From Myxococcales bacterium (lineage in GTDB: Bacteria; Myxococcota_A; Polyangia; Polyangiales; Polyangiaceae): a stretch of 33,452 nucleotides of DNA. Shown piece by piece: positions 30,026-33,452 of this stretch. The stretch covers positions 6,676 to 40,127 of the forward strand of contig JAAFHV010000056.1 of assembly GCA_013297655.1 (NCBI GenBank), in the 5' to 3' direction. The translations under genes and the position numbers were made by a program. Under the pieces are notes generated by a model. That model did not search any database and was not told the origin of the DNA. It saw only the letters and a program-made list of their open reading frames with translations. How positions within the stretch are numbered: position 1 is the stretch's first letter; each line of letters starts with the position of its first letter.

Positions 30026-30684
30026 GGAAGCCTCGCGGCCCGATCATACGCGCGCGATCGCGCCGCGACCGCGGAAATGGTCGATCGCGCGTCCGACACC
30101 TCACCCGCGGCGGGCAAGATGCCCGCGATGACGGCGACGAACGACGCGCCCGCCGCGAACACCTGCGGCGCGCGCTCGATCGTGATCCCCCCGATCGCGA
30201 CGAGCGGAAGCGCGCGCGAAGAGACGACCGCCGCCATCTCGCGGAGGCCCGCGAGCCCGACGACGGGCTCCGGGTTTTCCTTCGACGCGGTGGGGAACAC
30301 GGGACCGAACGCGACGTAGCTCGGCCCCGCGAGCGCCGCCTCGTCGAGCTCGGCGCGGTCGTGCGTGCTCACGCCGAACGGGATCGTCGCGGAGACACGA
30401 CGGATCGCGCGAGCAGGCAAATCCCCCTGCCCCACGTGCACCCCCGCTCCCACCGCGAGCGCGACGTCGACCCGATCGTTCACGTAGAACGATGCATCAT
30501 ACATCTTCGCGATGCGCGCGAGCCCTTCCGCGAGGGCGAGAAACGCGGGGATCGCGAGGTGCTTCGCGCGGAGCTGGATCATGGTCGCCCCGCCCTCGAG
30601 CGCGCCTTCTGCCACCGCGTGCGGCTCGAGCGACCTCGTCGCGCATGCGTCCACGTCGACGACCGCGTAGAGCCCGCGCCTCAC
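30022..30684 (-). CDS. thiE: Thiamine-phosphate synthase
   Basis: This 220-residue enzyme joins the pyrimidine and thiazole phosphates in thiamine synthesis. The family order is intact: LYAVVD, GGATMIQLRAK, FYVNDRVDVALAVGAGVHVGQGDLP, GVSTHD, YVAFGPVFPTASKENPEPVVGL and PLVAIGGIT. It is a TIM-barrel. Its product becomes thiamine diphosphate, the E1 cofactor of the PDH operon in the same window. The GTG start (30682-30684) overlaps the stop of the Rsm22-like gene (GTGA), and its stop overlaps the next ATG. No other thi gene or THI-box is seen nearby. Confidence 0.95.
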   Translation of the reverse strand: MRRGLYAVVDVDACATRSLEPHAVAEGALEGGATMIQLRAKHLAIPAFLALAEGLARIAKMYDASFYVNDRVDVALAVGAGVHVGQGDLPARAIRRVSATIPFGVSTHDRAELDEAALAGPSYVAFGPVFPTASKENPEPVVGLAGLREMAAVVSSRALPLVAIGGITIERAPQVFAAGASFVAVIAGILPAAGEVSDARSTISAVAARSRAYDRAARLP

Positions 30685-31853
30685 GATCGCGCCTCGACGA
30701 GGTCGACCTGGATGTCGGCTTCGAGCCGCTCGCCCTCGAGAGGCGGGAGGGCCACGAGATCTCCACGTCGAATTCGGTCCCACGCCGCGTTCGCTTCGGT
30801 GAGGTGCCTGTCGAGGCGACGAAGCTTGATGCGATCGGGAGCGCCCGCGAGCGCGCCACACACGTGCGCTTCGAGCTTTCCTTTCGAGCGCATGAGGTCG
30901 GACACGACACGGACGCGCGCCGCCGGAAGCACGTCGCGGAGGCTTTTTTTGTCCTTCCGAAGCACGAGGTAGCTGAACGAGAGCCCCTCGTGTCGCAGGC
31001 CCGCCGCGCGCGCGACCGGCACGAGCCAAGCCGGGAGGTCGACCGCCAGATCTTCGTGACACCAGTCGTCCTCCCGCGTGAGCATCGGGCACGGGGCCGC
31101 GTGGAGACACGGGGCGAACGGGACGATGCCCACGTTCGCGAGCGCGTCGCGGAGGAGCTGGAGGTGGCGCGTGCGATCACGGAGCGCAGGCTCCACGATC
31201 ACCAGCGCTCCGTCGGGGGCGAGCGAGTCGAACACGCCCGTGAGCCACGAGGCGTGCGCCTCCACACGCGCCTCAGGGGCCGCATTTTCGTCGAGCTCGC
31301 TGAGCACTTGCCCCACGAAGATCAGATCGTAGGGGCCCGTGGGCACGGGCTTCGGGGCTTCGTGAGGGGCGGTCCGCGCGTCGATCGTCACGCTTCGCTC
31401 GGAAGGAGCGGCGGCGAGATCGCGCGCGATCGTCAGCACGCGCGGATCGGCGTCGACGAGCGTCGCAGCGACCACCCCACGCCAGCCCGCGGCCTCCAGC
31501 GCGCCGCGCAGCCCGTGCGTCATCGCACCGAGCCCAGCCCCGACGTCGAGGACCCGAAGTCGCTCGCGACCCTCGAAAAATCCTGTTCCGACGAGCTCAC
31601 GGACCGCGCCGGCCCCCTTCGGAACGTCGCGCGGGAACGAAAACGCGAGGCGCGCGCCGAGGTGAGCTCGCGCCTCACGCGAGGGCAATGGCCCCCCCGC
31701 GGCACGCCGGTTGTAGACGTCCGAGAGCTTGCGAACCGCTTCTCCGAGGGCCTTCGTGTCCGCCGACGTGATCAGCCCGTGCTGCTTCGCGACGGCGTCG
31801 AGCACCTCGCGCGACGACCCATCGAGCGGCCTTACCAAAGACAAAAACGCCAT
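30681..31853 (-). CDS. Rsm22-type small-ribosomal-subunit methyltransferase-like protein
   Basis: The protein has 390 residues, a SAM-dependent methyltransferase of the Rsm22 family (PF09243), known from mitochondrial and bacterial ribosome maturation. The SAM-binding loop is VLDVGAGLGAMTHGL; YDLIFVGQVLSEL and GALVIVEPA are the usual post-motifs. A Cys/His cluster (PCLHAAPCPMLTREDDWCHE) fits the family's iron-sulphur-binding site. The start is the ATG at 31851-31853, with TAAAGA 7 nt upstream; a longer frame reaches 32066 but overlaps the divergent Nudix gene. It leads a coupled unit with thiE and a DUF4178-like gene. Ribosomal RNA as the target is inferred from the family. Confidence 0.88.
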   Translation of the reverse strand: MAFLSLVRPLDGSSREVLDAVAKQHGLITSADTKALGEAVRKLSDVYNRRAAGGPLPSREARAHLGARLAFSFPRDVPKGAGAVRELVGTGFFEGRERLRVLDVGAGLGAMTHGLRGALEAAGWRGVVAATLVDADPRVLTIARDLAAAPSERSVTIDARTAPHEAPKPVPTGPYDLIFVGQVLSELDENAAPEARVEAHASWLTGVFDSLAPDGALVIVEPALRDRTRHLQLLRDALANVGIVPFAPCLHAAPCPMLTREDDWCHEDLAVDLPAWLVPVARAAGLRHEGLSFSYLVLRKDKKSLRDVLPAARVRVVSDLMRSKGKLEAHVCGALAGAPDRIKLRRLDRHLTEANAAWDRIRRGDLVALPPLEGERLEADIQVDLVEARS

Positions 31854-31933: not shown

Positions 31934-32330
31934 GACGGGGGTGCGTGAGCGTATCCTCGCCGTCTCGGCGGTGCTTACCCGTGGCGCCGGCAACGTGCTC
32001 CTCGTGCGTCGCGGGCAGCCTCCACACGCAGGTCGCTGGTCGCTCCCGGGTGGCCGCGCGCTCCATGGCGAGAGCCTCGCCGCATGTGCCGCACGCGAGC
32101 TCCTCGAAGAGACGGGTCTCGTCGTCGCGCCGCTACCGGAGCTGCCCCTCGTCGCGCGGCTCGAGGTGGGCTCCTACGATCTTCACGTGGTGTTGGTCGG
32201 GGCCTACGCGCCGACCCACGGCGTGCCCGTCGCGGGCTCCGACGCTCTCGAGGCCCGCTTCCACGCCCTCGCGAGCTTGCGCGAGGACGATGTCACGCCC
32301 GGCCTCCTGGACGTCCTTCGTCACTTCTAG
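31932..32330 (+). CDS. Nudix hydrolase
   Basis: This small soluble protein of 132 residues (129 if the GTG at 31941 is used) has the complete Nudix box, running from GRALHGE through REL to EETGL (pattern GX5EX7REUXEEXGU). VLLVRRGQPPHAGRWSLPGG lies upstream, as in MutT- and ADP-ribose-pyrophosphatase-like members. It hydrolyses a nucleoside diphosphate linked to another group; the substrate cannot be read from the sequence. It is divergent from the Rsm22-like gene; the starts are 80-90 bp apart with back-to-back promoter-like boxes. The sequence after the stop leads into the regulatory region at 32.4 kb. Confidence 0.9.
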   Translation: MTGVRERILAVSAVLTRGAGNVLLVRRGQPPHAGRWSLPGGRALHGESLAACAARELLEETGLVVAPLPELPLVARLEVGSYDLHVVLVGAYAPTHGVPVAGSDALEARFHALASLREDDVTPGLLDVLRHF

Positions 32331-32334
32331 GGGA

Positions 32335-32364
32335 TCAGAACGATCCGCCGCCTTGCGTTGCCAT
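32335..32364 (-). CDS. Possible 9-residue micro-ORF with a strong ribosome-binding site
   Basis: On the minus strand ATG at 32362-32364 is followed by eight codons (MATQGGGSF) and a TGA. A near-perfect GGGAGGAGG lies 6 nt before the ATG, better than most real genes here. A sigma54-type promoter lies about 47 bp before the ATG. After the stop the transcript would run antisense to the Nudix gene. It could be a leader peptide, a small secreted or signalling peptide, or a remnant. No homolog is known to me. Confidence 0.4.
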   Translation of the reverse strand: MATQGGGSF

Positions 32365-32410
32365 GGTGCCCCTCCTCCCGTTTGATTCGTTACACACGTG
32401 TTCCACTAAA

Positions 32411-32426
32411 AGCACTGATGGTGCCA
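32411..32426 (-). promoter_or_regulatory. sigma54 (-24/-12) promoter
   Basis: On the minus strand TGGCACCATCAGTGCT reads as a -24 TGGCAC and a -12 GTGCT, with the key GG and GC separated by exactly 10 bp. It differs from the TGGCAC-N5-TTGCW consensus at one of the listed positions. The start of transcription would be near 32400, with a leader of about 36 nt to the micro-ORF. A palindrome at 32500-32518 lies about 110 bp upstream, where an enhancer-binding activator would be expected. Confidence 0.6.
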
Positions 32427-32499
32427 GCCGAATCGTCGGTTTTTGTGCGAGGATCAAATGTGCATGTGTCCACGTTCGTTGACAGACGAGGCTCGTTCG

Positions 32500-32518
32500 C
32501 TGTCCGAAATTCGGACAG
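32500..32518. promoter_or_regulatory. 19-bp perfect palindrome, likely operator or activator site
   Basis: CTGTCCGAA-A-TTCGGACAG is a perfect 9+1+9 inverted repeat. It stands about 110 bp upstream of the sigma54-type start on the minus strand and 77 bp before the ATG of the lipoprotein gene on the plus strand. It could bind a dimeric regulator of either gene. The 264 bp from 32331 to 32594 is otherwise non-coding and partly AT-rich for this genome. Confidence 0.65.
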
Positions 32519-32594: not shown

Positions 32595-33452
32595 ATGGTT
32601 CGTCGCGCGCTGACTCTGGCCACGCTGTCGTTCACGCTCTCGGGCTGCGGCCTGTTCTCCGTCGCGCCCCCCCCATCGCAGGTGCCAACCGGTGACCAAG
32701 CGCTCGCGCGCATCGCCGAGGTGCAGGCGTGCGGCCACGGCGTGCGCGCGAAGGCGACGATCGACCACTTCGGCAAAGAGGGCCGCATCCGCGGAGACCT
32801 CATGCTGTACGGCGTCGCGCCGGATCTCCTTCGCATGGACGCGGTGAGCCCCTTCGGCGCCAACCTCGCCACCCTCGCGAGCGACGGGAAAAACTTCTCC
32901 CTCTACGACATCCGCGACAAACGCTTCCTCTACGGGCCAGCCCTCCCGTGCAACATCGCGCGCCTCACCCAGGTGCCGCTCCCGGGGCACGTGCTCATCG
33001 GGCTCCTCCGCGGTCTCCCGCCCGAGCTCGTGCACACGAAGGGCTCGGCCACGATCGCGTGGAGCTCGTCGGGGTACTACGTGGTCACCCTCGTCGGCTC
33101 GCGGCAAGCGCGTGAAGAGCTCACGATCGGCGTGCACCCGGACGACTTCGGCAAGCCCTGGAACGCGCAGCGCCTCAGGCTCCTCTCGGCGCGGGTCGAT
33201 CAGAACGACGGCACCCTCTTCCGCGCCGAGCTCGACGAGCACAAGGCCGCCCCGATGGCCAAGGCGTGGGAAGATCCGGACGGCCTCCCCGGGGAGAACA
33301 TCGCGCCCTCGGGCCCGGTGTGCGAGGCCGAGCTCCCGCGCAACATCCACCTCGAGGTGCCGCCCGCAAAGTCGGACGTGCTCTTCCGCTACGACGAGGT
33401 CGTATGGAATCCGCCGCTCCCGCCGGGCACCTTCACTCAGCCGAACCCGCCC
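32595..33452 (+). CDS. Outer-membrane-type lipoprotein, DUF4292/LolB-like (cut by window edge)
   Basis: The first 286 residues are visible and no stop is reached. The signal ends at LSGC (Cys18). The body has a beta-rich LolA/LolB-like pattern: VRAKATIDHFGKEGRIRGDL, DLLRMDAVSPFGANLATLAS, DGKNFSLYDIRDKRFLYG and IGLLRGLPPELV. This is typical of DUF4292-like lipoproteins that handle lipids or help outer-membrane assembly. That role is inferred from the fold. The late part becomes Pro-rich (PPLPPGTFTQPNPP). The ATG at 32595 is preceded by the TATAGA box 7 nt upstream. It is divergent from the sigma54-type unit at 32.4 kb. Confidence 0.85.
   Translation, partial: MVRRALTLATLSFTLSGCGLFSVAPPPSQVPTGDQALARIAEVQACGHGVRAKATIDHFGKEGRIRGDLMLYGVAPDLLRMDAVSPFGANLATLASDGKNFSLYDIRDKRFLYGPALPCNIARLTQVPLPGHVLIGLLRGLPPELVHTKGSATIAWSSSGYYVVTLVGSRQAREELTIGVHPDDFGKPWNAQRLRLLSARVDQNDGTLFRAELDEHKAAPMAKAWEDPDGLPGENIAPSGPVCEAELPRNIHLEVPPAKSDVLFRYDEVVWNPPLPPGTFTQPNPP

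Follow-up and report, generated by a model that had tools for sequence, protein, structure and literature searches.

We analyzed a 33,452-nucleotide stretch of DNA (hereafter, the window), which forms the final 33 kb of contig C499 in a genome of 9.9 Mb (G000). Near its end, the gene for a LolB-like outer-membrane lipoprotein diverges from a minus-strand unit made up of two putative activator sites, a sigma54 promoter, a Shine-Dalgarno sequence, and an open reading frame (ORF) of nine codons (Table 1). The lipoprotein gene, present in 104 of 108 genomes of the family, serves as the anchor of the locus and is at most a putative part of the unit. The protein has no Pfam or NCBIfam match, and its predicted fold resembles LolB (Z 14.7, 201 residues, rmsd 3.6); myxobacterial LolB proteins may escape profile libraries. 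The last 42 codons of the gene within the window (33327-33452) are a 100% match to G000:C545:30719-30844. Thus, the two contigs probably overlap, with the gene continuing on C545. The Rsm22-type gene is syntenic in many relatives. No sigma70 promoters or terminators were found by a scan of the region.

Table 1. Positions of the unit and of its neighboring genes within the window.
Feature	Position	Strand	Remarks
Rsm22-type methyltransferase gene	30681..31853	-	PF09243, 2.4e-16; neighbor only
Nudix hydrolase gene	31941..32330	+	Convergent; PF00293, 1e-19; neighbor only
Micro-ORF MATQGGGSF	32335..32364	-	Octapeptide at the same place in 11/11 bearers; purifying selection
Shine-Dalgarno sequence GGGAGGAGGGG	32369..32379	-	
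Sigma54 -24/-12 promoter TGGCACCATCAGTGCT	32411..32426	-	GG-N10-GC; transcription start expected near 32400
Activator site 2, weaker half-conserved palindrome TGTCAACGAACGTGGACA	32467..32484	-	TGTCA spacing kept across bearers
Activator site 1, perfect palindrome CTGTCCGAATTTCGGACAG	32500..32518	-	Core TGTCC-N7-GGACA; conserved in bearers
LolB-like outer-membrane lipoprotein gene	32595..33452	+	Divergent, runs off the window; lipobox; locus anchor

The unit is conserved in 11 genomes (the bearers) of the window's family (Polyangiaceae/Labilithrix-type metagenome-assembled genomes), which represent five genera. Seven belong to genus g5, and one each to g1 (the window's genus), g65, g31, and g11; every titled bearer is a metagenome assembly. 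We examined the gap upstream of the lipoprotein gene at 30 loci, of which 11 have a minus-strand sigma54 site followed by an ATQG(G/A)Gx(F/L) ORF. At these 11 loci, the perfect palindrome coincides with the peptide, and none of the 30 loci has one without the other; the upstream sequence is short at a few of the 19 palindrome-free loci (for example, 183 bases at L051). Blind searches with the peptide alone (108 genomes) and with the palindrome and sigma54 box alone (183 genomes) were concordant in 10 genomes. Whole-region blastn against 59 relatives gave no significant match beyond the window's own genome, which indicates that the parts of the unit are conserved islands within diverged DNA. 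Seen in the window alone, a palindrome and an ORF could be chance; at the level of sequence, conservation settles the matter. The earlier note would have dropped its reading had the promoter, palindrome, and ORF not been conserved in relatives, and all three are conserved in the bearers.

As far as we searched, the micro-gene family is confined to one bacterial family. Among 317 genomes of the class, the peptide pattern followed by a stop matched once outside the family, in a sequence that reads TGG and has no stop. The palindrome together with the second site retrieved only three already-known bearers from 377 genomes of the phylum, and the tandem octapeptide pattern was absent from viral contigs. 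We found no paper containing the peptide or the palindrome, the latter sought in four versions. Other families of the order (G142, G147, and G048) also have QGGG repeats, which were set aside as long low-complexity runs with different spacer sequences. On the lipoprotein tree, the distribution of the unit requires eight changes (gains or losses), at least six of them by well-supported branches; the unit is probably old and often lost, judging by this pattern. It is present in just one in ten family genomes or thereabouts, and is therefore dispensable. In one further genome (G082; L135/L154), the coding end of an ATQGGGAF peptide lies upstream of the lipoprotein gene, with neither palindrome nor promoter, perhaps as the remnant of a decayed unit.

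The promoter region has the organization of a sigma54 promoter under an enhancer-binding protein (EBP). The earlier note, made from the letters alone, had described a palindrome, a sigma54 promoter about 110 bp away, a strong ribosome-binding site, and a nine-codon ORF starting with ATG. Each of these parts was found where it had been placed; the second activator-like site had been overlooked. The promoter TGGCACCATCAGTGCT scores 10/12 against TGGCACGNNNNTTGCW (consensus TGGCACG-N4-TTGCW), those of relatives score 9 to 11/12, and it is the best GG-N10-GC site on either strand of the window. Site 1 (CTGTCCGAA-T-TTCGGACAG) is the sole perfect palindrome in the window with 9-bp arms and a center of 0 to 5 nt, for which 0.36 are expected per center length, and TGTCCG-N5-CGGACA occurs without mismatch in all 11 bearers. 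Its center lies 84 bp from the GG of the -24 element, and about 110 bp from the expected transcription start. The distance to the -24 GG is 82 to 85 bp in nine bearers, and 93 and 95 bp in two; these longer spacings add about one helical turn, which would keep the phase. From the start of site 1 to the TGTCA of site 2 there are 33 bp in 10 bearers and 32 bp in one. Judged by base positions, such spacings would place two activator dimers on the same face of the DNA. The -24/-12 element and the phased inverted-repeat sites, for which ~80 to 150 bp upstream is the range expected of this promoter type, are accompanied by activators encoded in the genome, where PF00158 matches mark about 70 full-strength sigma54-activator genes.

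This arrangement resembles that of NmpR, an NtrC-type activator of Myxococcus xanthus that uses two inverted-repeat sites (GCGCA-N5-TGCGC) at a preferred spacing of 14 to 15 (PMC11841059). As in NmpR targets, the two sites of the unit are about three helical turns apart and upstream of GG-N10-GC. The sites lie 16 bp apart edge to edge, as against the 14 to 15 preferred by NmpR; furthermore, the site sequence is TGTCC-N7-GGACA, and the target is a micro-ORF.

The window's ORF (ATG GCA ACG CAA GGC GGC GGA TCG TTC TGA; 32364-32335) represents the shortest form of a peptide that varies in length. Across bearers, the ORFs at this locus encode one to six ATQG(G/A)Gx(F/L) units. Peptides with a single unit are MATQGGGSF (G000), MFATQGGGTF (G081), MTATQGGGTF (G030), and MTYATQGAGTL (G010); others are MLVSIATQGGGSF (G092), MKNYEGRGVRSTTATQGGGMF (G094), MVSFVSATQGGGMFAGSTQGGGSF (G089), MFLIQSATQGGGTFATQGGGTFRVRA (G090), and MRKYTGSGATAATAASAATQGGGMFATQGGGMF (G096), while G091 and G086 have six units each, including ATRGGG or STQGGG variants. 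The part preceding the units is unconserved (1 to about 22 residues), and in 8 of 11 ORFs the stop follows immediately after the F or L of the terminal unit. Secretion signals are absent from the peptide. Eight of the 11 bearers have a purine-rich Shine-Dalgarno sequence ahead of the ATG; in the other three, the expected 5' untranslated region is only ~1 to 3 nt long.

We find that selection acts on the coding sequence. Counting one unit per locus and excluding the variable seventh codon, pairwise differences between octapeptide codons number 10, 10, and 181 of 385 at positions 1, 2, and 3, respectively. The octapeptide thus appears to be translated and selected as a peptide. Since the loci were also recovered without the peptide pattern, this codon bias does not come only from selection by peptide. 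The micro-peptide proposed in the earlier note is borne out in that amino acids are kept while third positions drift, always under the same promoter. The nine-codon stretch is very probably a real, unannotated gene controlled by sigma54 through the promoter described above.

The element could instead act as DNA or RNA: as an antisense transcript over the Nudix gene, as a small RNA, or as a leader peptide that acts on the gene following it. A transcript in the window would indeed enter the Nudix gene in antisense, and in G092, alone among the bearers, the Rsm22 gene follows close by on the same strand. However, genes downstream of the unit vary among bearers and are mostly convergent, which speaks against both a leader peptide and a conserved Nudix antisense. 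By tblastn, no Nudix gene lies near most units, so that the antisense transcript suggested earlier is not supported as the conserved function. A leader-peptide attenuator was rejected, there being no conserved same-strand gene directly downstream. The earlier suggestion of a regulatory RNA also loses ground as far as structure is concerned: the fold z-score of +2.2 is worse than that of shuffled sequences, and Rfam at a permissive threshold gave nothing credible. Together with third positions that drift while residues stay, this leaves an action as DNA or RNA very improbable; antisense, leader-peptide, and structured-RNA functions do not explain the conservation.

Here, we establish conservation of the unit, its promoter geometry, coding selection, and the lack of a conserved gene downstream. 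To account for them, we propose that an NtrC-type EBP would bind the palindrome, and that cooperative binding would extend to the weaker site 2, three helical turns from it. Through DNA looping, the bound activator would contact sigma54-RNA polymerase at the -24/-12 promoter, and activation would yield a short monocistronic mRNA. Translation would give a peptide in which ATQGGGxF occurs one to six times. In the window's own genome, methionine aminopeptidase would trim MATQGGGSF to the bare octapeptide ATQGGGSF; elsewhere, tandem copies might raise the dose or valency of the octapeptide. From the DNA, we infer this course of events, including the identity of the activator, cellular translation, trimming, export, and the target. 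Our leading guess, which we hold tentatively, is that activity resides in the octapeptide itself, which would serve as a signaling or regulatory ligand. Its near constancy across genera would be unusual for a species-specific pheromone.

The peptide could also remain in the cytoplasm, as a ligand, inhibitor, or self-assembling filler on a conserved protein. A near-invariant ATQGGGxF in one to six repeats would suit a multivalent ligand, but no partner gene was found and most family members dispense with the unit, which makes this role doubtful.

Comparison with known short peptides reveals partial likenesses. Like the SHP and ComS pheromone ORFs of Rgg systems (PMC5167397), the ORFs are short and easily missed, with a variable N-terminus and a conserved C-terminal peptide; unlike them, they have no adjacent Rgg or ComR gene and encode no hydrophobic signal. 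Multicore precursors of ribosomally synthesized and post-translationally modified peptides (RiPPs) share the tandem identical short cores, but the unit has neither a leader nor a neighboring modification enzyme.

A second peptide locus bears on the possibility that the ORFs encode a multicopy RiPP precursor or a protease substrate, with cores trimmed or modified by an enzyme encoded elsewhere. In five g5 genomes (L169-L173), an ATQG(G/A)G(A/T)F micro-ORF without the palindrome lies directly downstream of another lipoprotein gene, and encodes MLHSITTAAATQGGGAF (two genomes), MLFPNTVRQATQGGGAF, MSHIEATQGAGTFATQGAGTF, or MMLTDSLPTTVHTASPSTTTRSATQGGGAFVSPAVL. This lipoprotein, found in 11 of 108 family genomes, has a predicted fold resembling YiiX-type cysteine peptidases (3kw0, Z 8.0; 2if6, Z 7.6; next match 2.9), and its H143 and C270 are invariant. 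Such a protein could be the processing enzyme, and the exact eight-residue tandem repeats with variable N-termini would fit a precursor or substrate. However, the lipoprotein is missing from the window's own genome, no modifying enzyme lies beside the unit, and there is no conserved leader, the N-terminal part being reduced in the window to a single methionine. We consider this explanation unlikely.

The leaderless communication peptides (LCPs) of the SIP/RopB type provide another comparison. In RRNPP-type systems, peptides are bound by TPR domains; one of these peptides is SIP, which has eight residues and no leader (PMC10518010). We therefore considered an intracellular peptide-sensing circuit. 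LCPs are mostly 8 to 10 residues long and are encoded, as a bare peptide without leader, by ORFs of 8 to 10 codons (PMC10518010); ORFs of this length occur in the window and in two to three other bearers, and those of the remaining bearers are longer. LCPs are hydrophobic and variable between species, whereas ATQGGGxF is glycine-rich, nearly constant over five genera, present in tandem copies, and under sigma54 control. Moreover, the unit has no adjacent RopB-type TPR receptor, its neighbors being the LolB-like, Nudix, and Rsm22 genes.

A candidate regulator or receptor is nevertheless encoded in the window's genome. By Pfam, a 771-residue protein (G000:C445:50772-53087, minus strand) combines TPR repeats, a sigma54-activator AAA domain with GAFTGA, and a helix-turn-helix of the Fis type. 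An intact TGTCC-N7-GGACA site, TGTCCACATTTCGGACA, a near copy of the palindrome, ends one base before its ATG (G000:C445:50772-53105), and autoregulation is possible. The core is rare: it is absent from 1.88 Mb of relative G010, which makes the coincidence notable. The association is a single site in one genome, spotted post hoc; no Shine-Dalgarno sequence precedes the ATG, and no orthologue of the activator was found in the same 1.88 Mb (22%) of G010. That the peptide is a leaderless communication-type signal, sensed intracellularly by this TPR sigma54 activator in a positive feedback on the peptide gene, is improbable given these points and the differences from LCPs. Still slightly less probable is a sigma54-based intracellular circuit of Gram-negative bacteria, in which a TPR EBP would sense the leaderless octapeptide, activate the peptide gene, and regulate itself through TGTCC-N7-GGACA.

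To our knowledge, few peptide signals are known in myxobacteria, and the unit raises the possibility of octapeptide signaling or peptide-based control in these bacteria. It also demonstrates that a nine-codon gene, below the limit of every gene finder, can be recognized by conserved promoter geometry and codon pattern. The new peptide family has a clear predicted activator site, which makes its regulator, conditions, and target directly searchable.

The earlier note had also proposed a search for the palindrome ahead of other sigma54 promoters of the same genome. Site 1 has no other exact copy in the 9.9 Mb, and one weak promoter-like case was found (L028; G000:C65:11831-11847), in which CGTCCGAATTTCGGACG is followed 70 bp on by CGGTCCGCACCTTGCA, upstream of an uncharacterized ORF. 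This is a possible second target. Among family genomes, the search with the palindrome and sigma54 box also yielded other matches, several before apparent RND adaptor genes. At L114, L115, L127, L128, and L130, in several family genomes, TGTCCG palindromes with extra GGACA/TGTCC half-sites and sigma54-like boxes precede apparent RND efflux adaptor genes.
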